A stretch of DNA of 62,454 bases, from the NCBI GenBank assembly GCA_012839805.1, contig DUMU01000021.1, positions 1 through 62,454 of the forward strand, written 5' to 3'. The notes under the pieces were generated by a model that was not told the origin of the DNA, made no database searches, and was given only the letters and a program-made list of their open reading frames with translations. Position 1 is the first letter of the stretch. Each line of letters starts with the position of its first letter. Made by a program: the position numbers and the translations under genes. Source of the DNA: Bacillota bacterium. Lineage in GTDB: Bacteria; Bacillota; Limnochordia; Limnochordales; DUMU01. Positions 6,136-27,184 of this stretch are shown in pieces.

Positions 6136-6625
6136 AGCCCTTCAATTGGCTCAGGGGGCCGCTTCCCTGGGAGAGATCCGCGAGAGAGATGCCCAAGAGA
6201 GAGCCCTGAGGCTAGGAGAGATGGTGCACTTTTCACCATCCCGGATGGAGCGGGGCGGTGAAAGATGCACCATCTACCCTTTCGCCTAGCTTCTGGGCAG
6301 TGGCAACCGCGAACCTCAGTGTCACCGGCTTCGGCCTGCGGATGGTGGCTTTCGACTCTGCGATGGCGTACTTTTCACCTTCCCCGCCCGAGCTGGATGG
6401 TGCAAGATGCGCCAGCAACCCCGTCAGCTGGCTAGAGCTGTGCTCGGGTCGGGGCCGTTCGCTTCGCCAATGACGAAGCTGGGGATAATGAAGCATGAGC
6501 ATGAGCGGCCCGCCTGCCCGCCCTGGGCGAGCACCGTTGGTGGCTGGTGGTTGTTGCAGCTACCGTTGGTGGCCGCTGCCGGCCGGGCGGTCAGGCGAGA
6601 CCCCGACCACGAGGAGGTAGACGAG
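6136..6625. other. Gene-free region holding paired dyad repeats (see 6220-6413)
   Basis: No plausible protein gene lies here; open frames on both strands lack start signals and domains. The dominant feature is a set of four related dyads described as a separate repeat entry. Confidence 0.5.
6220..6413. repeat. Four GGTG-N7-CACC type dyads in two 34-bp-spaced pairs
   Basis: Dyad 1 is GATGGTG-CACTTTT-CACCATC at 6220-6240. Dyad 2 is GGTG-AAAGATG-CACC at 6257-6271, and the segment 6257-6274 is almost the exact inverse complement of 6220-6237. Dyad 3 is GGCG-TACTTTT-CACC at 6365-6379 and dyad 4 is GGTG-CAAGATG-CGCC at 6399-6413. The starts of dyads 1 and 2, and of dyads 3 and 4, are each exactly 34 bases apart. 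The same 34-base pairing occurs in the GGGT-N9-ACCC modules at 17754 and 21871, suggesting a related element with compensatory arm changes. A CGGCCTGCG just before the second pair (6332-6340) also matches the copy at 22052-22060. Confidence 0.6.
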
Positions 6626-11943: not shown

Positions 11944-13167
11944 CTATACGACGTAGTCGAGAGTGGCCTCCGGGAATAGCCGGTGGAGGTTTTCAGTGAA
12001 GAACCGGGTGATCTCCTCGTAGGTCTCCTCGCCGTACACATACTTGCCGTAGCCAAACTGACCCCACTTCCACTTCCGCTGGCTTTCGTTCATCTCAAGG
12101 CGGGTGGTCGGGTAGACTTCCAGGATCGTCTGTTTTGCCCTGGGGGTGAACCGGTGAGCCACGATCTCGAAGCGCAAGTCATTCTCGGGAGCGGTTCGCG
12201 GCAGTTTTGCCCTGATCTCTTCCAATAGCTCGGCGTATTCCTTCTTCCAGCCGTGGTAGATGATTACCGGCGAGATATGAAATCCCAGGGGATACCCGGC
12301 CGAGGCTACCCTGGCTGCGGCATCCAGGCGTTCACTTACTCGCGGAACTGCTTTTTCGAACTGGCTGGCTACGGTCCTGGTGTTGACAGAAAACCGAATC
12401 CGGGTGTGGCCGTTGTGCCGGAGGCCGAGCAAGGGATCAACGGCCGCAAACTTGGTGACAAAACGAAAACGGCCGAACTCGGAGCGGGCAAAGTGTTCAA
12501 TGGTGGTACGCAAGGCGTGACTCCAGTGTTCCACAGCCACCGGGTCGGAAGTGCACGATCCGTCAAAGTAAGTCAACCGGGGGGCTCTTTCCCGGGCATA
12601 CTTGTCGGCAATCTCCAGGATCTCCGCAAGGTTCACGTAGATCCGGACGTACGGTTTGGTGCTCAGGTTGGTGTTCAGATAGCAGTAGTGACAATGACCG
12701 GGGCATCCGGTGGCAAGAGGCAGCGCGTAATCCGCTGAGGGCCTGGAAGTTTGGAAGGTTGTGCCCTGGCGCACCCCGACGACGAGCGTCCGCTTGGCTT
12801 CGAGGAACCGGCGCCGGGGCGTGTTGCCGGGCAGGCCCGCGATCCGGTTGTGCGACCCGGCCATCAGGATGGGCAGCCCGGCGCTGAGGGCTTGTTCGTA
12901 GATCTTCTGGCCGAGGGGGTACTCCAGCGCCCGTGGTTCGAAGTAGACGCGGGAGGGGTTGAAGACGAAGGTAGCGGTGGTCTTAGTCTCCGCCTCCGCC
13001 TCCGCCTTAGACCTGGCCTCCGCCCCGGCCTCAGTCTGCGCCGCAGCCTCAGTCTCCGGCCCAGACTGCGCCCCAGTTTGCGCCCCAGTGTCCGCCTCAG
13101 ACCCAGCCCCAGTTTCAGTCTCGGTCTTTGCCTGAGTCTCGGTCGAAGAGTTGACTGATGATTCCAT
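11944..13167 (-). CDS. splB: Spore photoproduct lyase SplB (radical SAM)
   Basis: It repairs the UV-induced spore photoproduct (5-thyminyl-5,6-dihydrothymine) during germination by a radical-SAM mechanism. The cluster motif is GCPGHCHYCYLN (CxxxCxxC). The H-donor cysteine sits in YFDGSCTSDPVAVEHW, and the C-terminal substrate-pocket Tyr residues are in WGQFGYGKYVYG. The catalytic body of about 340 residues is normal. It is preceded by about 60 residues of Glu/Thr/Ala/Gln-rich low-complexity sequence. ATG 13167 follows GGGGGA at a good distance and is preferred over GTG 13242. Confidence 0.95.
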   Translation of the reverse strand: MESSVNSSTETQAKTETETGAGSEADTGAQTGAQSGPETEAAAQTEAGAEARSKAEAEAETKTTATFVFNPSRVYFEPRALEYPLGQKIYEQALSAGLPILMAGSHNRIAGLPGNTPRRRFLEAKRTLVVGVRQGTTFQTSRPSADYALPLATGCPGHCHYCYLNTNLSTKPYVRIYVNLAEILEIADKYARERAPRLTYFDGSCTSDPVAVEHWSHALRTTIEHFARSEFGRFRFVTKFAAVDPLLGLRHNGHTRIRFSVNTRTVASQFEKAVPRVSERLDAAARVASAGYPLGFHISPVIIYHGWKKEYAELLEEIRAKLPRTAPENDLRFEIVAHRFTPRAKQTILEVYPTTRLEMNESQRKWKWGQFGYGKYVYGEETYEEITRFFTENLHRLFPEATLDYVV

Positions 13168-13274
13168 GTACGTTCCCCCACCGGTTAGGCTTACCCCGTG
13201 GGCCCGGCGCATGCAGGTGCTGCACTGTCCGGTGCTTTCCACGCTGCGCCCTGACTATGACCATTGACCATTTC

Positions 13275-13283
13275 TGGTATACT
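13275..13283 (+). promoter_or_regulatory. Possible extended -10 promoter
   Basis: TGGTATACT at 13275-13283 fits an extended -10 element (TG-N-TATACT). It lies about 150 bases upstream of the nucleoside phosphorylase start. No good -35 is seen at 17 bases. Confidence 0.3.
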
Positions 13284-13431
13284 CGCGTTGAAGGCGCGCT
13301 TCGCTCCGACAGTGGTCGGACGCGTGCCGGAATGGGCGTTCGGTTTCAGCCGGGATCAGTGGTGGTTTTGGCCGAAGTCAGCCGCCTAGCTTCCGGGGGC
13401 CGGAGACAAGGGGAACGCGGGGGAGATAGTG

Positions 13432-14244
13432 ATGGATTTAGATTGGTTTGACCCAAGCCCTGAGGTGGTGATTCGCCCGGAAGTCAACTGTCGGCGCGTT
13501 TGGCAGCGAAGGTTCGGAAAAGAATACATACAGATCTCTTCTACCGTCATATTGGCCAACGAAGGCGGTCGCATCTTTGAGTTAATATGCAAAGAATTAG
13601 ATTCAATCGCCAGTCCGGTATATGACTATCGAGATGCTGGCTATGTCTACTACGAGTATGACGCGCCGAAATCCGGGCCTGTCACCGTCTTTCGTGCGCC
13701 GGAGCCTGGCCCATGGGCTGCCGCGTTGCTGGAGGAGTTGATAGCCTCCGGCGGGAGACAGTTCCTCCTGATGAATCGCACGGGATCCCTCCGAGCGACT
13801 GTGCCGGTCGGAAGCCTGGTCTTGCCCGATGAGCTGGTTCGAGAAGAGGGGACGTCCTACCACTACGCACCACCAGATGTCCGACTTACTACCAGTCGCC
13901 AGTTGAACCAGCGTATCCGGGACATCGCTTCGGGCCTTGGAATTCCCCTCATAGACGGTAAGCACTGGACCACAGACGCCATCTACCGCGAGACATTTGC
14001 GAAGGTTGAACGCCTAGCCGGGGCCGGTGTGGTCTCTGTCGACATGGAGTTATCTGCATTGGCCGGCGTGGCGTACTTTCGGAAATGTGAACTATCTGCT
14101 GTTCTCGTGGTCAGCGACGTGGTAGCTCGAGATCATAGCTGGAACGGGATGACCACGCCTGAGTTTGGTTTGGGAGTACAGCGGGCGGCACAGATCGCGT
14201 CGAGGGTCTTCAGGTTTGAGGAGTCACAAAGCGTGAGCCATTAA
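13432..14244 (+). CDS. Nucleoside phosphorylase (PNP/UDP family)
   Basis: A 270-residue protein. The family signature is ERLAGAGVVSVDMELSALAG, where the DME Glu contacts the ribose of the nucleoside. An upstream MNRTGSLRATVPVGSLVLPD corresponds to the phosphate/nucleoside pocket with a Gly-Ser-Leu turn. These enzymes cleave purine nucleosides or uridine with phosphate; which substrate is used is not clear. ATG 13432 is preferred over the overlapping GTG 13429; GGGGGAGA lies just upstream. Codon use is less GC-biased than in its neighbours, hinting at later acquisition. Confidence 0.8.
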   Translation: MDLDWFDPSPEVVIRPEVNCRRVWQRRFGKEYIQISSTVILANEGGRIFELICKELDSIASPVYDYRDAGYVYYEYDAPKSGPVTVFRAPEPGPWAAALLEELIASGGRQFLLMNRTGSLRATVPVGSLVLPDELVREEGTSYHYAPPDVRLTTSRQLNQRIRDIASGLGIPLIDGKHWTTDAIYRETFAKVERLAGAGVVSVDMELSALAGVAYFRKCELSAVLVVSDVVARDHSWNGMTTPEFGLGVQRAAQIASRVFRFEESQSVSH

Positions 14245-14282
14245 CCCTGTCGGCCTGTTAACGCCGGGCTGGTATCCGGCTC

Positions 14283-14456
14283 GTGGAAGTGATCTGCTCC
14301 TTCGGTACCTCCAGTGGGTCTCAGCCGGCCGATGCCGCGGCAGAGGCAAGAGGGGCCCGGATCTTTCACTCGGCTCTTGGCCTGCTGGCCCATGACAGCT
14401 ACGCTGTCGACCATATCACCTTCTTGCGGGCGATGCAGGGAATTCCCGCGGCATAG
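14283..14456 (+). pseudogene. Short coding-like fragment, unidentified
   Basis: A 57-codon frame from GTG 14283 to TAG 14456 reads like real protein (FHSALGLLAHDSYAVDHITF near the end). It has no ribosome-binding site and is open upstream only to 14262. It may be the surviving tail of a decayed gene or an uncharacterised small ORF. No family was recognised. Confidence 0.3.
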
Positions 14457-14533
14457 AAGCGACTTTCGCCGAGACCTCCGTGACTCCGTGCACGGGTTTT
14501 CGACCCGGGCACAGGCCAGCGGCCCGGGGCGGC

Positions 14534-14574
14534 GAAAAAGGAAAAATCTCGGCCCTTAAGAAAAGGCCGAGATT
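14534..14574 (-). terminator. Intrinsic terminator of the BpsA gene
   Basis: A perfect 10-bp stem (AATCTCGGCC 14545-14554 with GGCCGAGATT 14565-14574, 10-base loop). Read on the minus strand it is followed by TTTTTCCTTTTT. It lies 15 bases beyond the BpsA-family gene stop. Confidence 0.85.
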
Positions 14575-14589
14575 GCTCAACGGCTTTTC

Positions 14590-15708
14590 TCAACGTTGTC
14601 GCCCTGAGTATATCAGCGCCTCCTTGTCCACGTAAAGCTCGCAAGGGATAGGTCTGTTTTCTACTCCTTTGAAACCACTCAAGGTCTCTATGCGGTACAT
14701 GGCAGACCGGTACCAGTTGAGCTTGGGTTTTACCTGTAGAAAAGGGTAGTCGTTTCGGATGCTCTTCAGTAAATAGTCCCAGTTGACATAATGGTTAAAG
14801 GAGTCGATTATATCAGTGATTACCACCTTGAATTGTCCCACTAGCAGCTGCTGGAACAGGCTCCATTTCTTCAAGGAAGCCTCTGTTCGTGTCAACCCAA
14901 AGTAACCGGCACATCCCTCACCGGAAAGACCTGTCAGTCCTCTACCTATGGTAAGCTCCAGAGCCTCCAGCGTCTCCGGCGGATCGGTATGGAAAGTGTC
15001 AAAGTAACCCATGTATTCTTCGGGCAGTTTATCTCTGAAATCATGCCTTACCGCTTTCACAGGCAGGCCGTATTCTGCCGCGGTGTTATTGATATATTCA
15101 ACCAGCCTGTCGTCGATTTCCAAAACAACGACCTCTCGCGGCATCCCCGAAAGACCGGCAGCTATGCTCACGAGGTCATCGTCCCCCAGAAGCAACAGCT
15201 TTTTGCCTTGGAGATCTCCCCTGTCCGCCATGAGGAGTATCCTGCTGACCACAGTCGGAGTTGTTACAAACCCCTGGTCGTAATCAATTATGGCCTGGGG
15301 TCGGTCGGCAGTTACTTCGTCAAATTTTTGCATTAGTTCTTGCAGTTTTGCCAGGTCGATTCCCCGTCCCTCGCAAGCCGGACAGGTGTAATCTTTTCTT
15401 GCGGTTATTCCCTGCACATTCAAAAATCCCCAGCCCTCGGGGGTGATATGTAAATCCCCTTTGTCGTCTAGCTCAACCATTCTCTTCCGTTCCAGAATTG
15501 CTATTATTTCAGCGACGACGCTGAACGGTTTCCGGGCGGCGCAGACAATACCCCAGAAGTGAGAGCTGCCGGCCAGTCCTGACAGCACCTTCTCCACATC
15601 ATGTACTGTAGTTTCGACCCCCGTGCGTTGATAAACCTCCTGTGCTATTTCCCTGAGATCGTCCACGGTTTCACCTCCAAACAAGGATTTGTTCTCATCA
15701 ATGGACAT
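14590..15708 (-). CDS. bpsA: N4-bis(aminopropyl)spermidine synthase (branched-chain polyamine synthase) family
   Basis: 372 residues. BpsA enzymes transfer aminopropyl groups from decarboxylated SAM to spermidine to make branched polyamines that stabilise nucleic acids in thermophiles. Visible features are an N-terminal winged-helix-like domain, a zinc-type CPACEGRGID, a Rossmann methyltransferase-like core (KLLLLGDDDLVSIAAGLSG with VVVLEIDDRLVEYI), and the DPPET motif in FDTFHTDPPETLEALEL. All match the BpsA (former DUF43) family. Minus-strand transcription ends at a strong terminator. Codon use is more AT-rich than the surroundings. No other polyamine gene is in the window. Confidence 0.88.
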   Translation of the reverse strand: MSIDENKSLFGGETVDDLREIAQEVYQRTGVETTVHDVEKVLSGLAGSSHFWGIVCAARKPFSVVAEIIAILERKRMVELDDKGDLHITPEGWGFLNVQGITARKDYTCPACEGRGIDLAKLQELMQKFDEVTADRPQAIIDYDQGFVTTPTVVSRILLMADRGDLQGKKLLLLGDDDLVSIAAGLSGMPREVVVLEIDDRLVEYINNTAAEYGLPVKAVRHDFRDKLPEEYMGYFDTFHTDPPETLEALELTIGRGLTGLSGEGCAGYFGLTRTEASLKKWSLFQQLLVGQFKVVITDIIDSFNHYVNWDYLLKSIRNDYPFLQVKPKLNWYRSAMYRIETLSGFKGVENRPIPCELYVDKEALIYSGRQR

Positions 15709-16303
15709 CGTTTGGAGATCCCAGGCAGTACTGTCAATGATCTAGAATAAAAGTGTGCACAAGTGTGCAGAAGCGTCGAGGGTTTAAGGGTACCCTCAAG
15801 CAGGAAAGGCCACGCAGCCTTTGGTAGCTGAACGGGCGATTACTCCGGCGCCACCAGCAAACCCAAGGATGGCCGACTACCAAGTTACCACAGATTGTGA
15901 GATTCTGCAGCAGTTGATTGTTCAGGACGGTGGAATGACGTGACTTGTAGGCAGGTGGTGGCACGGAGTGCGGTTCGGGAGCATTCTGGCGGCGGTGTGA
16001 GTTACCTGCGATCTTCGGCGGACCGGAAGAATGCTTGATGCGCGGGCATCGTTGACAGCCTCTGTACCGTCCATACTACCTCGGCCTGGATATCGAACAA
16101 ATCTTGGACCGATGCGAAGGGGCGGACCCGTCGGCTAGTCCACGCTGCCTTGGTAGACCCCAGTCTCAATGATCTCGAGCACCACCCTTTACGCGGTTCG
16201 CCATACATTCCGGCCGTATGCGCGGAGACGGGTCCGAGCTGCCGACCCTGCGGGTCCCCCCCTCGGATCTGCAGGTTAAGGCTCTGTTAGTTTCCTGGAT
16301 TCC
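15709..16303. other. Gene-poor region with transposase remnant
   Basis: About 600 bases without an intact gene. It contains an IS256-like N-terminal fragment (15869-15943), a local dyad GAGGGT-N8-ACCCTC at 15778-15797 and the repeated AAGTGTGCA at about 15751-15771. Stops are frequent in every frame. Confidence 0.45.
15869..15943 (+). pseudogene. Possible IS256-family transposase N-terminal remnant
   Basis: A 24-codon ORF, MADYQVTTDCEILQQLIVQD then GGMT and a TGA stop. It resembles the first residues of IS256-family transposases, which commonly begin M-A-x-Y-Q-V-T and continue with a leucine-rich segment. The rest of the transposase is absent, so this is an insertion scar at most. The match is short and from memory of the family. 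Confidence 0.35.
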
Positions 16304-17353
16304 TTGGCCGGAGTAATGGCGGGCTATGAGGAGGCCGTGCGGGTCACGGACGAGGCGGGCAATCTAATACGAACAGGTGATGACGGGTCGCTGCCGCTGC
16401 AGGCAGTTCAAAAGGGTGAACTGGAAGGCAGCTTGGTGGCCGGCCAGGTGCTGAAAGTGTCGCTGCCCATGGGCGAGATCGATCTCAGGGGCGTTAAAGA
16501 GGGTGGGGAAGGTGAGGAAGGTGAGCAAGGTGTAGGTGCGGTGGATGCCGCCCGGCTGCAGTACGAAGTGAGGGTGTACGGTCGGAACAAGCAAGTGGCG
16601 CAAGGGTATGCCGGGCGTGTGAAGGTGTCGCTTCGGCCATTGTCCGAGACCTCGGGAGCGTCCGGGGCGGTCGGGACGGCTGAAGAGGCTGGAGGTGGAC
16701 TGGAGCTCGTGGTGGAAGAGCCGCCCCGCCCGGCTGAACTGAAGGTCAAAGTGGTGGTACGCGGTGCGCTGCCTGCCGCCGCCCGGGTAGATCTGGAAAG
16801 CGGGTACGGGCTGGTGAAAGTGGTGGATCTCGGCGGGCCTCCTGTGGTGCGGAATGGGTATGGTCCTACCGGGCTGGGCCGCCTGGCGGGGGACTGGAGC
16901 GTGGAGGTGGACTACTCTGCCCTGCTGGTCGATGGGATAGCAGGGGATCTGGAGATGCGGGGCGACTATAGTGAAGCCAACGTCAGCCATGTAGGCGGTG
17001 ACCTCACCATCCGTTCAGACTACAAGGATATCCGGGTTGCGGACGTGCGGGGTGACGGCATCGGCGGCGATGTCAGAGCCAGCTCCTCGTATGGAGATCT
17101 GCGACTTGCGGGGCTGCGGCGGAACGTGGAGATCGAAGCCAAGTTCGCGAACGTGGATCTCGGGTTCACCGCTCCCCCGGACCACTGCTTCCGCCTGCGC
17201 AGCCGCTATGGGTCGATCGCTGATGACCTGTCGGTGACAGAGGAGCGGAGTGCCGGGAGCTGTGAGAAGTTGCGGCAAGGGGTGGCCGGCCGAGGGCAGT
17301 ACCGTGTAAGCGTCGAGACGGATGTATGGGAGGCGCCCGCCCGGAACAGGTAG
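16304..17353 (+). CDS. DUF4097-like (putative adhesin / auto-transporter-like beta-helix) protein, possibly 5'-truncated
   Basis: About 349 residues. The C-terminal half (from about residue 160) has a repeating short beta-strand pattern: VDLESGYGLVKVVDLGG, LEMRGDYSEANVSHVGG, LTIRSDYKDIRVADVRG, VRASSSYGDLRLAGLR. This is the beta-solenoid typical of DUF4097. The N-terminal third is not clearly assigned. No signal peptide or anchor is present, and the frame opens just after a stop at 16277-16279 inside a decayed region, so the native N-terminus may be lost. TTG 16304 and ATG 16316 are the available starts; neither has a good ribosome-binding site. Confidence 0.6.
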   Translation: MAGVMAGYEEAVRVTDEAGNLIRTGDDGSLPLQAVQKGELEGSLVAGQVLKVSLPMGEIDLRGVKEGGEGEEGEQGVGAVDAARLQYEVRVYGRNKQVAQGYAGRVKVSLRPLSETSGASGAVGTAEEAGGGLELVVEEPPRPAELKVKVVVRGALPAAARVDLESGYGLVKVVDLGGPPVVRNGYGPTGLGRLAGDWSVEVDYSALLVDGIAGDLEMRGDYSEANVSHVGGDLTIRSDYKDIRVADVRGDGIGGDVRASSSYGDLRLAGLRRNVEIEAKFANVDLGFTAPPDHCFRLRSRYGSIADDLSVTEERSAGSCEKLRQGVAGRGQYRVSVETDVWEAPARNR

Positions 17354-17753
17354 CAGGTGGTGCGGGAGAGGTAGTGCAGAAGCAGGTAGTGCTGAGGTAA
17401 TGCTGAGGTAATGTTGAGGTAGGCTGTAGGCCTAGGGTCACATCACAAGCCACAGGCCCGCGGCGGCAGGCCTAGGCAGTGGGCCGTGGGCGCCAGGTCG
17501 TATTCCTGGGCACAGGCCGCGGGCCCCGTAGATCCCGGGCGGCATGCGCAAAGGACCAGGCCGCATGCCACAGGCCCCGGGCGGCCTGTGCAAAGGGCTA
17601 GGCCAGAGGCCTGCAGCCCCTGCCGAGGCCTTTGGCGAATTGGCCAGGCGAAGGTGGGTACTACCGTGCTACCGCAGCGACCACTCCCCGGTCGCTGATT
17701 GGATCTACCCTGCCTGAGCCGATCCCCCAGCCTTTTGGGGTAGGTTGAGGGGT

Positions 17754-18019
17754 GGGTAACAAAACTACCCGGCCCCGGCGAAGGACTGGGTAAAATCATT
17801 ACCCACTGGCCGTCGACGAGTGTCGGCTGGCTGCCTCCCGGGGTGCGGCCGGCCCCGGCCAAGGCACTCGACCTGGGCATTTGTCCGCCCACTGGCCCGG
17901 GCGTCCAGGCCAGGGTCACGCCGGCTCGGCCTCCGCAAGGCGTGGGAACGTTCCCATCGGCGGGGCGGGTAGTTTCTTCACCCACTCTAGCACACAGAGT
18001 GGGTGAAAAAACTACCCGC
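17754..18019. repeat. Dyad module, copy A (four GGGT-N9-ACCC dyads plus palindrome)
   Basis: Dyads start at 17754, 17788, 17967 and 18001; each is GGGT, nine bases, ACCC. The first two and the last two are exactly 34 bases apart. The perfect 14-bp palindrome TGGGAACGTTCCCA at 17943-17956 starts 24 bases before the third dyad. Dyads 3 and 4 together form a 24-bp inverted repeat with one mismatch (17965-17988 against 17996-18019, 7-base loop). The nine-base centres are A/T-rich, often GAAAAAACT. Copy B at 21871 has the same elements with the same spacing. Confidence 0.8.
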
Positions 18020-18020
18020 A

Positions 18021-18176
18021 GTCTTGGTGGAGTTGGTGGGGTTGATGTGGTTGATAGAGTTGGTGCGGTTGGCATGGTTGGTGGGGTTGGCGTGGTTGGT
18101 GGAGTTGACAGGGATGCTGCGGTTGGTGTGGTCGGTGGAGTCGGCGTAGTTGCGTTGGTTGGCGTTACTGAGATAA
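18021..18176. repeat. Degenerate 9-base minisatellite (TTGGTGGNG type)
   Basis: About 16 tandem units of roughly nine bases, for example TTGGTGGAG, TTGGTGGGG and TTGGCGTGG, begin just after module A. All frames through it encode trivial repeats, so a protein origin cannot be excluded but is not supported. Confidence 0.6.
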
Positions 18177-18251
18177 TTGCAGTTCCGGGGTAAGGACACC
18201 ACGGCTTCGGGGTTCGGCAGACCAAGCTGCGACGCTGGATTCTAGGTAATT

Positions 18252-18935
18252 CTAGATAACCGTAGCTCCGGCTCTTGCCATCTCGTCGATAGCCCTGTCC
18301 CCGTCTCCTTTATTCACATTCACTGCCCGCACGGCGTCTCTTATCACGACCACTTCCAAGCCTTCTTTGAGCCCGTCCAGGACTGTGGCCTTCACGCAGT
18401 AATCGGTGGCCAGCCCGCCTACGTAGATGCGCTTTACACCCTGCTGGCGAAGCCATTCCGCAAGGGGCGGGCCAAAGGTTTCCTCCGGCGCGCTTGCCTT
18501 GTTCTTCCCGGCCACTTGGCCGGCCGATTGGTTTGTCACCTGGCTCTCTGCGGCCTGGAGCCTTGAGTCAAATCCGGAATAGGCCTCCCGGTTCGCCACA
18601 AAGCCCTTCACAAAAACTGGTCCTTCCACGAGAAGGTCCGGATGGAAGTCAGACCCATAGGTATGCTGCAGGCAGTGGGGCGGCCATATGCCACCGTTAG
18701 GCTTAAAGGAAGAGTGATCGGCCGGATGCCAGTCCTTCGTATAAACTACTGGCAATCCCCGCTCACGGAACTTTTTGATCGAGGTGTTCAGGACGGGCAC
18801 GACCTGATCGCCCTCTGGTACCGCAAGTGCTCCCCCCGGACAAAAGTCGTTCTGGACGTCGACCACGACCAGACAAGAATAGTTAGGGATATCGATTTGG
18901 TTAGGAATAGGATAAACGTTACGGGTTATCGACAT
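18252..18935 (-). CDS. pncA: Nicotinamidase / isochorismatase-family hydrolase
   Basis: 227 residues. It deamidates nicotinamide to nicotinate for NAD salvage. The catalytic triad positions are Asp in VVVDVQNDFCPGGAL, Lys in the PVFVKGFVANREAYSGF region, and the nucleophile Cys in GGLATDYCVKATVLDG. Metal ligands are in DWHPADHSSF and the following PPHC. An insertion of about 25 polar residues (SQVTNQSAGQVAGKNKASAP and following) before the LxEWLRQQGVKRIYV core is not usual for PncA. ATG 18935 has GGAGG upstream. Confidence 0.92.
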   Translation of the reverse strand: MSITRNVYPIPNQIDIPNYSCLVVVDVQNDFCPGGALAVPEGDQVVPVLNTSIKKFRERGLPVVYTKDWHPADHSSFKPNGGIWPPHCLQHTYGSDFHPDLLVEGPVFVKGFVANREAYSGFDSRLQAAESQVTNQSAGQVAGKNKASAPEETFGPPLAEWLRQQGVKRIYVGGLATDYCVKATVLDGLKEGLEVVVIRDAVRAVNVNKGDGDRAIDEMARAGATVI

Positions 18936-19001
18936 CGAACCACTACCTCCGAGAGTTTTGCTTATCCCGTGCTGCTCAAGGTATTATCTCAGACCGTCCG
19001 G

Positions 19002-19910
19002 TTACTGCGCTTGAACCGTCTCATCTCTCCAGGTAGTAAGACGAACGCCGAGGTCGTCTATCATCCGATAGGTTTCCGGGTCGAGGAAAGCTTGCAAGTC
19101 CCAGACCCGTTGTTGCCAGCCGGGGAAGATGGCCCGGAGTTCAGGCGTATCCGCGGCGGGGTGGATGATTACCTGGCTCAAACCGGCGGGGAGTCCCGCA
19201 AAGATTTGCCGTATTGCTTCCTTCTTGGCAGCGTAACTGGGAGCGGCCGGCAACTGCACGAGGTAGTCGAGTTTCACCCCAGGATAGGCCTCGCTGCAGC
19301 GGGCGAGCGCCTCCACCGGATAGCCGGCCCGGGCGTACTCCTCTCGAACGAGCGGCGAGAGGCGCAGAAGCATGGGGGTCAGGCGATGCTCGGCCGCCAC
19401 GGCCAGGAAGGCTTCCAGGAACGCGGGGGTAGCGAAGACAGTGCCCATGTGCGTGTCCAGGTGGGTGGGGGAGAGGCCCCAGGCCCTAGCCCGTTCGACC
19501 TGGGCCGTCAGCTCTAGGCGAACCTCTGCCGCCGAGGCGTGGGTCGCTACCGATTTTACGTCCCGCCAAAGGAAGCCGTCGGGGTCAACCAGCCCAGAAA
19601 CGGTTGCCGACGGGGAAACTGGCCTCCACCGATAGGTAGCCCACTCGCTGGTCAGGGTCGCATGGATGCCGATGTCGGCCGTGCCGGTGCCGGCCCTGGC
19701 GCTGTCGGCCGCTGTTTTTTCATCTGTCAGCCAGCGGACAAAGTCGTACGCCCACGGACATGGGACCATGACGCTACCAGAACGCACCGGCGAAGACGTA
19801 ATCAGTTCCTTGACAGCCAGGTTGACCGCATGGCACATCCCGATGTCGTCACAATGGACGATTACCCGGCGCTCTCCCCTTGAGGACTCCGATGAGGACT
19901 CCGAGGTCAT
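19002..19910 (-). CDS. ChbG/HpnK-family (YdjC-like) carbohydrate deacetylase
   Basis: 302 residues. The YdjC fold hydrolyses N-acetyl groups from chito-oligosaccharides or related sugars, or acts on hopanoid precursors. The metal-binding Asp-Asp is in VIVHCDDIGMCHAVN, and the His pair in GIHATLTSEW and THLDTHMGTVFA. A later VIIHPAADTPEL completes the active site. GGGGGAG lies just upstream of ATG 19910. The Ser/Glu-rich first 12 residues come from a short direct repeat (GAGGACTCCGA). No sugar-uptake genes are nearby, so the substrate is open. Confidence 0.88.
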   Translation of the reverse strand: MTSESSSESSRGERRVIVHCDDIGMCHAVNLAVKELITSSPVRSGSVMVPCPWAYDFVRWLTDEKTAADSARAGTGTADIGIHATLTSEWATYRWRPVSPSATVSGLVDPDGFLWRDVKSVATHASAAEVRLELTAQVERARAWGLSPTHLDTHMGTVFATPAFLEAFLAVAAEHRLTPMLLRLSPLVREEYARAGYPVEALARCSEAYPGVKLDYLVQLPAAPSYAAKKEAIRQIFAGLPAGLSQVIIHPAADTPELRAIFPGWQQRVWDLQAFLDPETYRMIDDLGVRLTTWRDETVQAQ

Positions 19911-19945
19911 GGGACACTCCCCCGTTTCTTGGGATTTGCGTCTTT

Positions 19946-20001
19946 CTCACCTGCTCGCCTGCTCACCTGCTTACCTGCTCACCTGTTCGCCTGCTCACCT
20001 G
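19946..20001. repeat. 8-base tandem repeat (CTCACCTG)7
   Basis: Seven units of CTCACCTG with a few substitutions (CTCGCCTG, CTTACCTG, TTCGCCTG) fill exactly 56 bases upstream of the deacetylase gene. The unit is not a multiple of three, so it is not a coding repeat. Confidence 0.8.
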
Positions 20002-20086
20002 CTGATGTCTCGTTCTCCCCGCGAAACGCATTTCCTGCGCTTGGGGTTGCAGGCAGTTCACCAGTAGTGCCGGCAAAGCGAGGCGA

Positions 20087-20692
20087 TCACTGGCTCCTGC
20101 CGGGAGACAACGCCGCGAAAGCTTGCCGGGCGGCAGCCAGGGTATACTCGATATCCGCTTCGGTGTGGGGCGCCTGCACGAACCAGGCCTCGTACTTGGA
20201 TGGCGGCAGGAGCACGCCCCGGCGGACCAACTCCTGGAAGAAGAGGCCGTAGAGGTGGCTGTCGGCGACTTCGGTGTCGGCGAAGTTCCGGATCGGCCGT
20301 TCACTGAAGAAGAGGGTGAAGGCGCCCCCCACCCGGTTTAGCTGAACTGGAATCCCGGCTCGGCGTGCGGCGTCGAGCAGCCCTTCTTCCAGCCGGGCTG
20401 CAAATTGGTCGAGGCGGGGGTAGGGGTTTTCCTCCCGCAGGGTATCCAGGCAAGCGACGGCGGCGGCGATGCGGGGATGGCCGTGGCCGAGGATGAGGGC
20501 GCCGAAGGCGGCCAGGTAGTCGATGTAGCGGTTGCCGTCCACGTCATAGAGGTAACCGCCCCGGCCGTAGTCCATGAAAAGGGGGGCGCTCCCGCCCACC
20601 GGTGTGTAGGAGTGGCTCGGACTGTTGACACCACCCACAACGGCGTGGCTCGCGCGGGCAAAGAGTGCGGCGGAGTGCGGGAAGGAACGCCT
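20087..20692 (-). pseudogene. hemL: Internally deleted glutamate-1-semialdehyde 2,1-aminomutase (hemL-like)
   Basis: Both ends of a GSA aminomutase can be read in one frame: the N-terminus RSFPHSAALFARASHAVVGG-VNSP then the GGYLYDVDGNRYIDYLAAFG segment, and the C-terminus TLREENPYPRLDQFAARLEE through SKYEAWFVQAPHTEADIEYT. Between GHGHPRIAAAVA and CLDTLREEN the middle of the enzyme, roughly 230 residues with the PLP-binding Lys and cofactor pocket, is missing without a frameshift. The product cannot be catalytic. There is no clear start codon at the conserved N-terminus. The 'gene' is best seen as a deletion relic; the organism must have another hemL or no tetrapyrrole need. Confidence 0.85.
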
Positions 20693-20789
20693 AAAGGTGG
20701 GGTTAGCAGGGTGGGGGCCGGGGCGGGGTTGGGGTTGAGGTGATGGGGGTTCGTAGACGCCGCAGAACTCAAGCCAATCCGTCCTGTTT

Positions 20790-21698
20790 CTAGTACCTGG
20801 CTCGCTTGCCGGTTGCCCGGTAGATGTAGCGCTCGCTGACGTCCACGATGTAGTTCAGGACAGGATCGTCTAGGTACACCGTGCGCAGGGGCAACTGCGG
20901 CGCTTCCTCGATCTTGGCCAGCATTCCCGTAAACGTCAAATCTTCCGGGTGGATTGTGATCAAAGTCACGCCGTGGTCCTGGCTGATAGCCTTCTTAATG
21001 TAGTCTCGGGCCCTCGTTTGGGCGACCTGCTCGGAATCTGGGAAATGACCGGTCACCCGGTAGTGTTGCGGGCCGTTGAACTCAAAGGCTACGCTCCCCC
21101 CTTCGCAGGCAGCATACCACCGGTCGTACTCCAGGTTTTCACCGGTTGTCGGGTTGCACAGAAATCCGGGGCGAGCGTTGTCGTCGTATTCGGATAAATC
21201 GACGAGCAAGGTCAGCCACTCTTTCATCAGCGCTTCGCCGACGTGGGGTGCACGGTCGAGGCGCTTTTGCACTTGCTCGAGTTCACGCCAGCGTTCTGCC
21301 AGGGCAGGGTAGCACAGGGTGAACCTCGTGCTGTGTGCACCAGCCGGCTCGACACTCAACCACCCCTGGCCCACCAGCTCCCGAACATGCTTGCAGAGAG
21401 TGTGGCGTTCGATACCCAGTTCACGGGCAAGTTTCCGCTGGCTGACGGTGATAGTCTTGACTTGCGCTGGCACTTGCGCTGGCGTGCGAGTCCGCCCCTG
21501 ACCTGGCGTGACCACTTGAGCCCGTTCATGGCAGCGCGAGAGAAGTGCCAGGTAAATCACCTTGGCGATCGGAGTGATCCCGGAACTGACCAGGTCGACC
21601 GGTGTGGGGATCTCGAACCATCGGCAGCTGAGCCCCCTGTATTTCCGGGCACTCTGGTCTGTGGCCGGTGGCTGCGGTTTTTTGGCCGAAACGTCCAT
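20790..21698 (-). CDS. Winged-helix / PD-(D/E)xK-like nuclease fusion protein
   Basis: 302 residues. An N-terminal domain (about 20-125) resembles a replication-initiator-like or GntR-like winged helix: ITPIAKVIYLALLSR, then VSQRKLARELGIERHTLCKH and VRELVGQGWLSVEP. The C-terminal part (about 175-270) looks like a restriction-endonuclease fold: VAFEFNGPQHYRVTG supplies the Glu/Gly-Pro-Gln-His-Tyr element seen in Vsr-like and mismatch-type nucleases, and RARDYIKKAISQDHGVTLIT fits the helix and strand that follow it. No restriction-methylation partner is present. GGGGG precedes ATG 21698. Dyad module B begins about 170 bases upstream. Confidence 0.65.
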   Translation of the reverse strand: MDVSAKKPQPPATDQSARKYRGLSCRWFEIPTPVDLVSSGITPIAKVIYLALLSRCHERAQVVTPGQGRTRTPAQVPAQVKTITVSQRKLARELGIERHTLCKHVRELVGQGWLSVEPAGAHSTRFTLCYPALAERWRELEQVQKRLDRAPHVGEALMKEWLTLLVDLSEYDDNARPGFLCNPTTGENLEYDRWYAACEGGSVAFEFNGPQHYRVTGHFPDSEQVAQTRARDYIKKAISQDHGVTLITIHPEDLTFTGMLAKIEEAPQLPLRTVYLDDPVLNYIVDVSERYIYRATGKRARY

Positions 21699-21870
21699 GC
21701 TAACCCCCTAGCTGGGTTTAGCGGATGAGTTGTGGATCAAGCCTCAGTAACAAGAGCCGTATATGAGGCGCGAACCAGCTCACTAAGACCGTAACTCCTG
21801 CTGCAGAGTATGCCCACAATATGTATTATATGGCATCACTTGGCAACTATGTCCAGAGGGTGGGTGAGGC

Positions 21871-22139
21871 GGGTACAAAAACTACCCGACCCCGGCGGAC
21901 GAGTGGGTGAAAAAACTACCCACCTACCACCGATGACAGTTGGGCTTGAGGTCTGCCGGAGAGCATCGCAACCCGTGCAAGCACTGTAGCTGGGCGTTAG
22001 CATGCGGCCTCGCCTCGCCCGCCCGGGCCACGGTTCACCCAGACCCCGGCCCGGCCTGCGTGGGAACGTTCCCAAGGCCTGGGTGGGTAACTTTTCGACC
22101 CAGCCAACGCCGCCGGGTGGGTGAAAAAAGCACCTACCC
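21871..22139. repeat. Dyad module, copy B (four GGGT-N9-ACCC dyads plus palindrome)
   Basis: Dyads start at 21871, 21905, 22085 and 22119 (the last ends ACCT, one mismatch). The pairs are again 34 bases apart, and the palindrome TGGGAACGTTCCCA at 22061-22074 starts 24 bases before the third dyad. First dyad to palindrome is 190 bases against 189 in copy A. The region between pairs is diverged but keeps a GCACT...CTGGGC block at the matching place (21981-21995; copy A 17864-17878). The copies are in the same orientation, 4.1 kb apart. Confidence 0.8.
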
Positions 22140-22538
22140 CCGCACCGCCTGCCTGCCTGCCTGTGGGTATGCCTACCAGTAAGCCTCTCGCCACTTCCTG
22201 GCCGGTGACCAGCTTCGCGGTTTGACGCATGGCTATGACGCCTGGATTCATCGCAAGTTCAATGTCTATATGACTCGTGGCAGCGAGCCCTGGCAGAACC
22301 AGTCCTCGTTCAGCAAACCGCGACCCGCCGCCGATCCCGCTCGTGAACAGGGCTCTGTAACTGCGCCGTCTGCTCAGTGTCGGCGGCGTACTCTACCGTA
22401 TCAACGTCCGGAGTTGTCCCGAACCAGTCGCTGCCTCCTCCGCCTGATCCCGACTACCATTGGAAAACAGCGTCTTTGACGTACCCCTTCAACCTGCGTC
22501 AACATTAGCGCGAGCTTCGGCTCAACCGGTTGGTCTTC

Positions 22539-22724
22539 ATGACTGTCGGACCTGAGCCCTGGTGGTCCGAGCGCGCCCGCCTGCTCGACGCGGAGGCAGA
22601 ACGGCTCGGCATCACGTTCGCCGACAGTGTCTTGCGGGAACGGTGGGTCACCGGTGAACTTTGGGAGGCCAGCACTCTCAAACGCTGGGCCGCACTGGCA
22701 GACGGTAGCTGTCCCCAGTCATAG
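22539..22724 (+). CDS. Short unidentified ORF (61 aa)
   Basis: ATG 22539 opens a frame reading MTVGPEPWWSERARLLDAEA and then ERLGITFADSVLRERWVTGE, which has protein-like composition and amphipathic helices. There is no clear ribosome-binding site, and no family was recognised. It may be the tail of a decayed gene. Confidence 0.3.
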   Translation: MTVGPEPWWSERARLLDAEAERLGITFADSVLRERWVTGELWEASTLKRWAALADGSCPQS

Positions 22725-22882
22725 GGCAGCCTCTCCACCGGCATCGCCTGAATAGCGTTCCAGGTATCGTGGGCGGCCGTCGCCAGCAGGAACAAGAGTT
22801 TAGCGCCACACTGAGTCAAAATGACCAGTCTTCGAGTGGCGGCGACGGATGAGTTGGAACACTTCCGCCGCCGCCCTGAGTC

Positions 22883-24208
22883 TTAACTCTTTAGATACGT
22901 GCACTCCAGCCGCAGACATTCGTCCTCAGCTACGTACCGCTCCGAGAAGGCGAACTTGTATGCCCCTGCGTCGATCACGCCATTGCCCCGTCTAATACGG
23001 ATGTTCTTTGCCCCGGCGGGGATGGCGAGGTACAAGCCGGATTTTGCGTTGGCGCCCAGGTAGTTCTGCAACTTACCCACGACCAGATTGGGGTCCTCAA
23101 TTGTCGTCGTGACATACTTATCTCTCGACAGCGCTACGGAACCGATAATGTGTTCGGGGTACACCTTCACCATCTTGCGGTAGATCACTTGCACCTTACT
23201 CGGGTCGCGCGGGTTGGGGACCAGCTCGAACTCTATTTTGTGCCCGTCATTGTCGAATTCAGCCAGATGCTCTAGGTTTGCATCATGAATACCAAACGTC
23301 CAGTTTTCTCCTCGCGGGATGACGCCACCGTTTGCCTCAAGAATGGCATTCATACGCTGCAGTTCCCGATCGTCGACGCGGGAGGTACCGCCGAAGTAGT
23401 TGAGGGTGGTGCCATCGCTCAACGGGATGGCTATCAGGTAGTGCCGTATCTCGCCGTCCCGCGCCGGCGTCATATTTGCAGCCAGAATCCGAAGCGACTC
23501 CGCCAGATCGGTGCAGTCCTTGCACGCAGCCAGGTGGCCTTCCACTTTTTCCCGATCCTCAGGCATTATCCGCCCCTTGGCATACTGGAACAGGAAGGCG
23601 TAGGCGTCTTTGCAGTTCACGACAAATCCCCCCTCGACCACGTATCGGGACAAGTGTCTGCGGAGCTTTTGCAGCCCGTAATGGCACTTAGACTTGACAG
23701 AGCCCACCGGTTGGTTGGTTAGGTGCGCCACCTGGTGGACACTGAAGTCCCTGACGAAACGGTAGTACACCACGCTGCGCTGGGCCTCCGGAAGCTTGCT
23801 GATAGCTTCCATGATGCGCCGCGTTAGCTCGTTGGCCAGCGCTACCTCCTCGGCGGATGGTACATGATCCATTGCCGTCTCTATGAAGTGGACGATGCTC
23901 TCGTCGCCCGTGCACAGGTTCACCTCCCGTATGGCGGCCGGACTGCCCAGGTAACGAAACGCGACGTTGCGGGCGATGGTGCGCAGCCATTGCCGCTGCC
24001 GGCCGGTTTCCTGGTAACCGTCGTAGGCCTTGAACGCCCGGATGAACGTCTCCTGGACGATGTCTTCCGCGGCCTCCTGGCTACCGACGATTTTCTTGAC
24101 ATACCGGAGGAGCCACCCCTGGTTGTTGACGACGACCTGCTCGAATGGGGAATCGATCTCCAGGACGCACCACCCCCGCGGCGGCATCTGCATCGCCTGA
24201 GGCGCCAT
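22883..24208 (-). CDS. ECF-type RNA polymerase sigma factor fused to a zinc-finger and a C-terminal sensor-like region
   Basis: About 441 residues from ATG 24208 (the frame is open to GTG 24406). Region 2 is visible as LLRYVKKIVGSQEAAEDIVQ, then ETFIRAFKAYDGYQ, and region 4 as ISKLPEAQRSVVYYRFVRDF with the HTH VHQVAHLTNQPVGSVKSKCH. After the sigma domains comes a zf-HC2-like motif (KVEGHLAACKDCTDLAESL), normally found in a separate anti-sigma factor. A further 200 residues of unknown fold follow, with beta-rich strands and no membrane helix. The protein may be self-regulated through its own zinc finger. No separate anti-sigma gene is adjacent. Confidence 0.8.
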   Translation of the reverse strand: MAPQAMQMPPRGWCVLEIDSPFEQVVVNNQGWLLRYVKKIVGSQEAAEDIVQETFIRAFKAYDGYQETGRQRQWLRTIARNVAFRYLGSPAAIREVNLCTGDESIVHFIETAMDHVPSAEEVALANELTRRIMEAISKLPEAQRSVVYYRFVRDFSVHQVAHLTNQPVGSVKSKCHYGLQKLRRHLSRYVVEGGFVVNCKDAYAFLFQYAKGRIMPEDREKVEGHLAACKDCTDLAESLRILAANMTPARDGEIRHYLIAIPLSDGTTLNYFGGTSRVDDRELQRMNAILEANGGVIPRGENWTFGIHDANLEHLAEFDNDGHKIEFELVPNPRDPSKVQVIYRKMVKVYPEHIIGSVALSRDKYVTTTIEDPNLVVGKLQNYLGANAKSGLYLAIPAGAKNIRIRRGNGVIDAGAYKFAFSERYVAEDECLRLECTYLKS

Positions 24209-24493
24209 CCAACACAAGGAATCACGTTGACCGGGCGATGGTTCAAACGGGAGAAGAATCTCCACCTCCGTCAGCAGCACGGAAATTCCGCCGCTGGCCC
24301 GTCCGCCCTTCTGCGGTTCGGGATCAGGGGCGAGCGTCCCTGTTGACTGACCGTGAGGGAGATGGTACGGTCTGTGGTAGTTAGATAGTTTGCTAACAAT
24401 CTTCACGACGGGTTGGCCGGGAGCGCCGGTTGGACGATTAGTAGGGTTAGTAGGGATAGCGGGAGCGGGAGCTCAAGGGGGAGAGGAGCAAGA

Positions 24494-24781
24494 TTGGGGC
24501 TGGACCTGGTTTTCAAGGCTTTGTCAGATCCGACCCGGCGTCAGATTCTGCGTATGCTCTCGCAAGGCGACCTGTCTGCCGGGGAGATCGCGTCCGCTTT
24601 CGCCATGGCCAAGCCCAGCGTCAGCCACCACCTCAATGTCCTCAAGCAGGCTGGACTGGTGCAGGACGAAAGGCGGGGGCAGCAGATCATCTACTCTCTC
24701 GATACCACGGTGTTCCAGGATGTACTCGCGTGGATTTTCGAAGTGGCCCGGCGTTCCGATCAGCCCCGCCGGCCTGGCTAG
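24494..24781 (+). CDS. ArsR/SdpR-family transcriptional repressor
   Basis: A 95-residue winged-helix protein from TTG 24494, which has GAGAGGAG upstream. The core is LDLVFKALSDPTRRQILRML, LSAGEIASAFAMAKPSVSHH and LNVLKQAGLVQDERRGQQII, closest to SdpR-like autorepressors that lack metal-binding cysteines. The SdpI-type gene follows 38 bases downstream, reproducing the sdpRI operon arrangement of immunity genes. The frame is open further upstream, but the leading 27 codons are low-complexity. Confidence 0.85.
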   Translation: MGLDLVFKALSDPTRRQILRMLSQGDLSAGEIASAFAMAKPSVSHHLNVLKQAGLVQDERRGQQIIYSLDTTVFQDVLAWIFEVARRSDQPRRPG

Positions 24782-24819
24782 TTAGTTAGAACCAGCGAAA
24801 GCAATGCGACAAAGGGGCG

Positions 24820-25530
24820 ATGGATATGGGTGAATCGTCACAGACACCGCAAGACGGGTATCGTCTGGACTGGCCGCAGGTGCGCCGCGATTGGCCTATC
24901 TGGCTTCTGCTTCTTGGGTCTTTCCTTGCCGGGCTGTGGGCGTACCCGCACCTTCCTGAACGGGTTCCCATCCATTGGGACTTGCAGGGACGGCCGAACG
25001 GGTGGGGTTCACCGTTTTGGGCGGCCTTCGGCGTTCCGCTGCTCAATCTCGGCGTCTACATTCTGATGCTGATCTCCCCCTTGATCGACCCCAAACGGGC
25101 CAACTACGCCCGGTTCACCGGCTTTTATCGCGGCCTGCGGTGGCTCATCGTTGCTTTTATGACCGCCGTTTACGGCGCGGCTTGGGCAGCCGGGCTGGGG
25201 TATTCGGTAGACATAGCGCTGATCGTGCCGCTCGCGGTGGGGCTGCTCTGGGTCTATATCGGTAACTCGTTGGGGCGGGTGCGGTTCAACTATTTCGTCG
25301 GGATTCGCACCCCCTGGACTCTGGCCGACGAGACGGTGTGGCAGCGGACGCACCGCCTCGGGGGCAGGTTGTTTGTGGTCACCGGGCTGCTGACCGTCGT
25401 AGCATTGCCCTTCTCTCGGGTTGCCTCTTTCTGGGTGCTGACGGGTGGTTCACTGGCAACCGTGATCGGCACTCTCGTGTATTCGGCGGCGCTGTACCTG
25501 CGGCGGTCGCGGCCCGAGGGCGGCGAGTGA
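24820..25530 (+). CDS. SdpI-family / DUF1648 membrane protein
   Basis: 236 residues with about six membrane helices. The DUF1648 signature is LPERVPIHWDLQGRPNGWGS after the first helix, and the SdpI signature is FNYFVGIRTPWTLADETVWQ then RTHRLGGRLF. In Bacillus, SdpI is the immunity protein against the SdpC killing factor and sequesters SdpR at the membrane. Here it is cotranscribed with an SdpR-like gene, but no SdpC-like toxin gene is seen in the window. ATG 24826 is an alternative start. Confidence 0.88.
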   Translation: MDMGESSQTPQDGYRLDWPQVRRDWPIWLLLLGSFLAGLWAYPHLPERVPIHWDLQGRPNGWGSPFWAAFGVPLLNLGVYILMLISPLIDPKRANYARFTGFYRGLRWLIVAFMTAVYGAAWAAGLGYSVDIALIVPLAVGLLWVYIGNSLGRVRFNYFVGIRTPWTLADETVWQRTHRLGGRLFVVTGLLTVVALPFSRVASFWVLTGGSLATVIGTLVYSAALYLRRSRPEGGE

Positions 25531-25741
25531 GATAGGGGGAGGGGGCGGCACGGGGCAAGCCGCATGGGGCCGCATGGCAGGCGTGATGGCGTGAGAGATG
25601 GCGAACGAGTTGGGGAGCGGCTCGGCGAGCGGGACGGCGAGCCGGATGGCCAGCGATGCGGGTGTGACGGCAGGCGGGATGGCAGGCGGGTTGGCGAGTG
25701 TGAGCTAGGACCGGGCGTCAAACAAGGAAGGGGCAGATCGT
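25531..25741. other. Intergenic region with degenerate GGCGAGC/GGATGGC repeats
   Basis: The 25560-25710 interval is built of short imperfect direct repeats (GGATGGC, GGCGAGC, GATGGCG) and has no supported gene. It ends in the leader of the hydrolase gene, with GGAAGGGG before its ATG. Confidence 0.4.
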
Positions 25742-27184
25742 ATGTGGACGAAGCATGGGTACCGGTGGCAGCTGATCAAGCGCTGTGCAGCCGTCATGGC
25801 CGCGGTCACCGCGCCCATTATCATCATCATCATGATTACGGCCGGTGGTACACAAGCGGCTTACGCAGAGGAGGCCGCTCACGCAGCGCTTTCCCCAACT
25901 GTAGCCGGGGCGGCAGCACGGGCCGCCGAGCTTTTTGCCGCGGGGAAGTACCAGGAGCTTTGGGAGATGGGGGCTCCGGTCCTGCAAGCGGCGATCACCG
26001 TCGCCCAGCTGCAGGCCATCGGCGACCGGCTGGGGGCGGTGCAAGCGGTGGGCCGGCCGCAGGCAGTTCCGGGATATCCCCAAACCGCCATCGTGGTCTT
26101 GACCTATCCGGCGTTCAAGGTTGATCTGACTTTGACCGTTGACGAAGAGGGTAAGCTGATTGGCCTGTTTGTGAGGCCGCACGAGGAGCAGCTGCAGCCC
26201 GGCTGCTCGGCGGCTTCGTCCTCTGCTGATGGTGCTGATGCAGAGGAGAGCTGGGAGGCCCCACCTTACGTCGTCGCCGGAACGTTTGCTGAACGCACGA
26301 CCACCTTCGGGACACCCGGGTGGGAGCTCGAAGGGACGTTTACCTATCCGACTGACCGGGCGGAGTATCCGGCCGTCGTGTTGGTGCATGGCTCCGGACC
26401 CAACGATCGGGATGAGACGCTCGGTCCCAACCGCATCTTCCGGGATCTGGCCTGGGGGTTGGCGAGCCGCGGGATCGCCGTCTTCCGCTACGACAAGCGG
26501 ACGTACGTGCATGGCGGGAAGATGACTCCCGCCGATGTCACGCCGTATAGCGAAGTGATCGACGACGCCCGGGCGGCCATCGCCTGGGTCAAACGGCAAC
26601 CGGGCGTGAGCCGCGTTTACCTGGTTGGCCATAGCTTGGGCGCCCAGCTCGCGCCGGCCATCGCTGAAGGGCTGCCCCCTGGCACGCTGGCGGGGTTGGT
26701 GCTGCTTGCCGTTCCCGCCCGGCCTCTCGAGGAACTGGTCGTCTACCAGGTGCAATACCTCGCCCAGATCGACGGTACGGTGACGGACGACGAGAAGCAG
26801 GCGATTGCCCAGTTGGAGATGGCGGTGCAGGCGCTCACAGCCGGGCAACTTCCGGCCGATGCTGACTTTTTGGGCGCACCAGTTCACTATTGGGTGAAGT
26901 TGCGTGAACTGTCACCCGTGCCGATCGCCCGCCGGCTGGAGCTTCCCCTGCTACTCGTTCAGGGCGGGCGTGACTACCAGGTTCCGCCCGCAGAGTTCGA
27001 AGAGTGGAAGAAGGAACTGGGTGGGCGAGGGAACGTCGATTTCGAGCTGTTTCCCGACCTCAATCATCTGCTCATACCTGGCGCTGGACCTTCCACTCCG
27101 CAGGAGTATGAGAAGCCCGGTCATGTTGCGGAAGAGGTGATCGAAGCGATCGCCCGTTTCGCCGGGTGGGCGAATAACGGGTAG
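25742..27184 (+). CDS. Secreted alpha/beta hydrolase with N-terminal DUF3887 domain
   Basis: 480 residues. A signal peptide or anchor (CAAVMAAVTAPIIIIIMITA, residues about 15-35) is followed by a DUF3887-like domain (about 50-145) and an alpha/beta hydrolase domain (about 175-480). Hydrolase motifs are VVLVHGSGPNDRDE (oxyanion region), GHSLGAQLAPAIAEG (nucleophile Ser), GGRDYQVPPAEF (Asp) and DLNHLLIPG (His). Similar DUF3887-hydrolase fusions occur as cell-envelope esterases in Clostridia. The substrate is unknown. It is convergent with groEL; a 28-bp palindrome lies between them. Confidence 0.88.
   Translation: MWTKHGYRWQLIKRCAAVMAAVTAPIIIIIMITAGGTQAAYAEEAAHAALSPTVAGAAARAAELFAAGKYQELWEMGAPVLQAAITVAQLQAIGDRLGAVQAVGRPQAVPGYPQTAIVVLTYPAFKVDLTLTVDEEGKLIGLFVRPHEEQLQPGCSAASSSADGADAEESWEAPPYVVAGTFAERTTTFGTPGWELEGTFTYPTDRAEYPAVVLVHGSGPNDRDETLGPNRIFRDLAWGLASRGIAVFRYDKRTYVHGGKMTPADVTPYSEVIDDARAAIAWVKRQPGVSRVYLVGHSLGAQLAPAIAEGLPPGTLAGLVLLAVPARPLEELVVYQVQYLAQIDGTVTDDEKQAIAQLEMAVQALTAGQLPADADFLGAPVHYWVKLRELSPVPIARRLELPLLLVQGGRDYQVPPAEFEEWKKELGGRGNVDFELFPDLNHLLIPGAGPSTPQEYEKPGHVAEEVIEAIARFAGWANNG

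Follow-up and report, generated by a model that had tools for sequence, protein, structure and literature searches.

The four dyads at 6.2 kb of the window (the whole stretch of 62,454 nucleotides analysed) were found to belong to a genome-wide family of modules, which we consider probably to represent a dispersing non-coding double-stranded DNA element, predicted to act as a platform on which protein dimers form a loop. The architecture of the element, the spacing of its parts, its two arm classes, its helical phasing, its dispersal and the restriction of the family were observed directly. The family was dispersed, apparently in intergenic positions, in the window's genome (G000) and its two nearest relatives, G001 of the same genus and G002 of the same family, with about 10–20 copies per genome. 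These are compost-type bacteria, all represented by draft assemblies; G001 and G002 are placed in Limnochordales (MAGs Bu89 and Bu26).

Architecture of the modules

All four dyads of the 6.2-kb module were present where the sequence-only reading had located them, at 6223, 6257, 6365 and 6399 (Table 1). The form GGTG-N7-CACC was exact in the first two, with one arm change each in the third (GGCG...CACC) and the fourth (GGTG...CGCC). The arrangement in two pairs with 34-bp spacing was also borne out, and is far above chance in the window. Single dyads of the GGTG-N7-CACC type were near chance in this GC-rich sequence, with 54 found and 42 expected. The paired pattern GGYR-N7-YRCC-N19-GGYR-N7-YRCC was present five times (6223, 6365, 17755, 17968 and 21872) versus 0.02 expected, a number reached by none of 100 shuffles, and a sixth pair, at 22086, had one mismatch. 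When any spacer length of 5–35 bases was allowed, exactly N19 was still found in 13 of the 14 matches in the three genomes (10 of 11 distinct places), and the 34-bp register is thus not a search artefact; the single exception, with 21 bases, looks like chance. The dyads reach approximately 21 bp, three bases beyond the core on each side.

Table 1. Positions in the window of the 6.2-kb module and of copies A and B.
Feature	Position	Strand	Remarks
Dyad D1, 6.2-kb module	6220..6240	+	core GGTGCACTTTTCACC 6223-6237, T class
Dyad D2, 6.2-kb module	6254..6274	+	core GGTGAAAGATGCACC 6257-6271; 34 bp from D1
Centre, 6.2-kb module	6275..6361	+	degenerate box trace only (CTAGCTTCTGGGC near 6286), without GTGGGAACGTTCCCAC
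Dyad D3, 6.2-kb module	6362..6382	+	core GGCGTACTTTTCACC 6365-6379
Dyad D4, 6.2-kb module	6396..6416	+	core GGTGCAAGATGCGCC 6399-6413; 34 bp from D3
Copy A, R class	17752..18019	+	dyads at 17755, 17789, 17968, 18002
Central box, copy A	17869..17883	+	CGACCTGGGCATTTG
Palindrome, copy A	17942..17957	+	GTGGGAACGTTCCCAT; 26 bp before D3
Copy B, R class	21869..22137	+	dyads at 21872, 21906, 22086, 22120
Central box, copy B	21986..22000	+	TGTAGCTGGGCGTTA
Palindrome, copy B	22060..22075	+	GTGGGAACGTTCCCAA; 26 bp before D3

The shared two-pair design, the strict 34-bp spacing and the genome-wide family uphold the view that the 6.2-kb module is related to, but shorter than, the modules at 17.8 kb (copy A) and 21.9 kb (copy B). 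It measures 142 bp from D1 to D3, and its centre scored 9/15 for the box and 8/16 for the palindrome. The 9-mer CGGCCTGCG, said to precede the second pair here and in copy B, was present at 6332-6340 and 22052-22060, but is weak evidence, with five occurrences in the window versus two expected.

In the oriented and aligned full elements, the order was D1-D2, the box, often the palindrome GTGGGAACGTTCCCAC, and then D3-D4. The box, with the consensus CTAGCTGGGC(T/G)TTTG, was defined post hoc from inspection of the alignment; the palindrome was seen in many copies, 25–26 bp before D3. The dyad centres were mostly A-rich in D1 and D2, T-rich and inverted in D3, and A-rich in D4, the D3 motif being the inverse of the other three. 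Little was conserved outside D1 and D4 (nothing beyond ~3 bp). Correspondingly, the alignment of old paralogues spanned D1 to D4 and hardly further, and paralogues were 66–72% identical across full elements, young pairs excepted. Variants of the design included a run of three consecutive dyads, each 34 bp from the next (G001 C1:13676), and eight T-class solo pairs in G000 (C23:75919, C1:84409, C13, C19, C27, C49, C23:135295 and C20:7762), with a second pair not clear nearby. These are possibly half elements, and two pairs are thus not always needed.

Other features of the window included a cyclic di-GMP-II riboswitch at 1316-1401, a 9-bp tandem-like repeat (TTGGTGGNG, 11 overlapping copies) at 18015-18174, immediately following copy A, and an 8-bp repeat at 19946-20003.

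Arm classes, base pairing and helical phasing

The GGTG/CACC arms at 6.2 kb, which had been described as swapped, were explained by two classes of half-site: the module is T class, with two half-sites off-class, versus the R class of copies A and B. The T-class half-site is GWTGGYGC, with T at -1 in 96/102; the R-class half-site is NYRGGTRN, with T at -1 in 4/164. The association of T(-1) with GC(4-5) (p = 1.5 × 10−34) makes the classes nearly all-or-none. The switch affected whole elements, nearly every half-site of one element sharing its class, and the T class was confined to the window's genus (14/17 loci in G000, 3/9 in G001 and 0/12 in G002). The two classes would imply two binding specificities, probably those of paralogous proteins.

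It had been proposed that pairing rather than sequence is conserved, as would be the case if the dyads were hairpins of a structured non-coding RNA. The region did fold better than shuffles (z = -3.9), and both the local and the long-palindrome pairings exceeded column shuffles and slid controls. A covariation test on the alignment, a check suggested by the sequence-only reading, gave a signal, yet an equal one between half-sites that are unable to pair in a hairpin; the hairpin covariation counts were good, but the incompatible long palindrome scored equally. The half-sites of one dyad showed 55.5% agreement, those in different pairs of the same element 60.0%, and those of different elements 44.1%. 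As agreement within a dyad was not above that between pairs, arm similarity is a property of the element and not of base-paired partners, and the proposal was not supported. The apparent covariation arises because two discrete classes switch nearly all of the half-sites of an element together.

The mismatches between arms, read on the same strand, comprised 14 C.A/A.C and 4 wobble in D3, and 10 C.A/A.C and 21 wobble in D1, D2 and D4. Since D3 shows the reverse bias to the other dyads, no single RNA strand explains the mismatches and neither strand is favoured as RNA; such a reversal is as expected of an oriented DNA motif or oriented protein sites. No match of the modules to Rfam covariance models was found at the gathering threshold.

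The distances between parts of the R-class elements also spoke against an RNA. The D1-box distances were 102–104, 113–115, 124–125 and 136 bp, and the box-D3 distances were 66–67, 77–80, 87–89, 99–100 and 119 bp. In a scan of periods from 6 to 20 bp over distinct values, the best periods were 10.6 bp for box-D3 (p = 0.003), 11.0 bp for D1-box (p = 0.001) and 10.6 bp for D1-D3 (p = 0.019), scan-corrected; at 10.5 bp, the distinct distances alone gave p = 0.0002–0.0008. The outlier D_C35 and the unboxed D_322600 were dropped from both box distances and kept for D1-D3. A periodicity of 10.6–11 bp is that of the DNA helical turn, and, for R-class elements, argues against RNA and for double-stranded DNA. 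No helical phasing was seen in the T class (eight full elements, the 6.2-kb module among them; p = 0.23). On the mismatch bias, the half-site comparison and the helical phasing, the RNA hairpin reading was rejected, and we regard it as very improbable.

Distribution and dispersal of the element

The two-pair design was repeated on many contigs of G000, and also in G001 and G002. A model of the 57-bp pair, built from sequence alone, gave 44, 26 and 38 hits in G000, G001 and G002, respectively (both strands counted), and 0–1 hits in each of seven other genomes of the order. The catalogue comprised 38 loci (17 in G000, 9 in G001 and 12 in G002), some of which are kin by descent and thus not independent data points. 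A scan of 84,980 species for the three-dyad pattern, from which G000 itself was possibly left out, returned only G001, G002 and two isolated hits, by our own estimate roughly the chance expectation. A wider taxonomic spread was therefore rejected. An origin from phages, plasmids or viruses was also rejected, as searches of phage, plasmid and viral collections gave no relative.

The elements lay mostly between ORFs, which were called by a simple longest-ORF rule without a gene finder (Pfam was run on the window genes). The settings were convergent, tandem and divergent, and the neighbour genes were unrelated, which speaks against operator clusters that regulate adjacent genes. Palindromic sites with A/T centres do look operator-like. 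The CebR/CelR operator belongs to LacI-family regulators. Its motif is TGGGAGCGCTCCCA (PMC5332605 and others), to which TGGGAACGTTCCCA is similar. However, neither the element at 6.2 kb (W_6223) nor that at locus C20_31609 is matched by one beside the same genes of the relatives, and regulation of adjacent genes appears unlikely.

At the 6.2-kb locus, the GNAT gene, the zinc-ribbon gene and the FAA hydrolase gene are kept in G001 and G002. The gap that holds the element is ~490 bp in G000 versus ~115 and 126 bp in the relatives, where the element is absent. C20_31609, which lies between a transporter gene and uppP, was likewise missing from the corresponding locus in both relatives; in G000, the reading frame of the transporter continues into the element. 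Since sister and outgroup lack both, the simplest account is that the window's lineage gained them. The orthologous empty sites had diverged too far for the joint to be located.

Two pairs of copies in G002 are young duplicates: their identity is 87% across 367 and 405 bp, the edges are abrupt, and the flanking sequences are unrelated. The duplicated segments ended 47–104 bp outside the dyads, each elsewhere, and no target-site duplication was seen in either pair. The source gene of a fragment carried by one of the pairs was not found as a third copy. Exchange between copies also occurs, as copy B seems to combine parts of two elements that are neighbours in G001.

These observations bear on a non-autonomous mobile element of MITE- or intasome-like type, in which the dyads would be recombinase or transposase sites at both ends, the centre a core or accessory site, and the recombinase supplied in trans. 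Copies at non-orthologous positions, the absence of W_6223 and C20_31609 from the orthologous loci of both relatives, the transporter reading frame that extends into an element, the sharp edges of the two recent G002 duplications and the match of old paralogues over little more than D1 to D4 all favour it. Integrase att sites have a design of paired arm sites around a centre, the integrase binding arm and core sites and exchanging strands in the core, and the paired sites and phased centre seen here may be comparable in layout. However, neither target-site duplication nor fixed ends were seen in the duplicated segments, no recombinase was linked with the elements, and viral contigs, phages and plasmids yielded none of them. 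We regard a mobile element of this type as a serious possibility, albeit the less probable one beside a looping DNA platform.

The segment of the window at 11944-27166, which holds copies A and B, shared 84–90% identity with contig C20 of G001 over most of its length, compared with 65–76% at two further orthologous loci; the segment is possibly DNA recently shared or exchanged with G001. That copies A and B are conserved in G001 was therefore rejected as proof of selection. The same segment contains a broken hemL-like gene (20087-20772), in which ~690 bp of the G001 version are missing and fragments are left, with Aminotran_3 over 45 residues only. Another G002 repeat, of ~120 bp, was 87–97% identical between copies and MITE-like with GAGAGCGCT inverted ends (L069:3306-3425, L068:3690-3808 and also near L067).

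Predicted complex and comparison with known systems

For the looping DNA platform, we infer a binding protein, a loop and a role either in organising the chromosome or in mobilising the element itself. Each ~21-bp dyad would be bound by a dimer of a putative sequence-specific protein, and two dimers at the fixed 34-bp spacing would form one pair, filled together. A full element carries two pairs flanking a centre, in which the conserved box is often accompanied by another palindrome that resembles an operator. R-class elements would have both pairs and the box on one face of the helix, with the distances between them changing by whole turns. Since the same face is kept, the R-class pairs probably meet, closing a DNA loop of ~170–275 bp, which would form around the box. 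The element spreads to new genome positions, and the loop may serve chromosome organisation or the movement of the element itself. Counting against this reading are the unphased T class, to which the 6.2-kb module belongs, the solo pairs of G000 and the restriction of the data to three draft genomes. A more specific version, in which a looped, helically phased complex on four dimer sites drives the spread or function without transposon-type ends, and the two classes co-evolve with two paralogous proteins, is tentative and rather unlikely as a whole.

Adjoining copy B, at 20790-21698, lies the gene for P0001, a winged-helix protein whose EFNGPQHY motif may resemble that of PD-(D/E)XK-like nucleases; its homologues occur patchily in the class, with up to 10 hits per genome. 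P0001 was rejected as the cognate protein, given this patchy occurrence and because neither the G002 homologues nor those on other contigs of G000 lie where the elements are.

If this reading is true, the ~10–20 copies per genome form a natural series for testing DNA looping, with distances varying by whole helical turns, and the two site classes in one genome a switch of DNA-binding specificity that is traceable across all element sites. The element may also be a clue to a mechanism of dispersal, or a system that organises the chromosome, not previously recognised in Limnochordia.

Among known systems, bacterial interspersed mosaic elements (BIMEs) are similar to the elements in combining palindromic units, alternately oriented, into intergenic composites that occur in many copies; both BIMEs and REPs are bound by proteins, and REPs are 20–40 bp long, abundant and mutually similar (PMC2817692, PMC3733652). 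Unlike REPs, the elements are built from 21-bp dyads paired at a strict 34-bp spacing, with low overall identity and phasing in one class, and there are 9–17 loci per genome, as opposed to more than 100 near-identical units. The Y1 (RAYT) transposase PF01797 was absent from all three genomes (91–96% complete), the control genomes being positive, and a REP/RAYT system was rejected. The elements are similar to MITEs in being small, non-coding, dispersed and apparently mobile via a partner in trans (PMC2229807), as well as in the presence and absence of W_6223 and C20_31609 at orthologous loci. Unlike in MITEs, terminal inverted repeats at fixed ends were not found, and the conserved part is internal and phased. 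The OL/OR operators of lambda CI are a looping system with dimer sites in two groups. The looping operators of LacI and GalR likewise have two groups of dimer sites (PMC1762422, PMC4693257). The groups are helically phased, as a loop bridged by protein would require, and such phasing was seen here in the R class only. However, while LacI, GalR and lambda CI operators control one promoter, the design described here is scattered genome-wide at unrelated genes.
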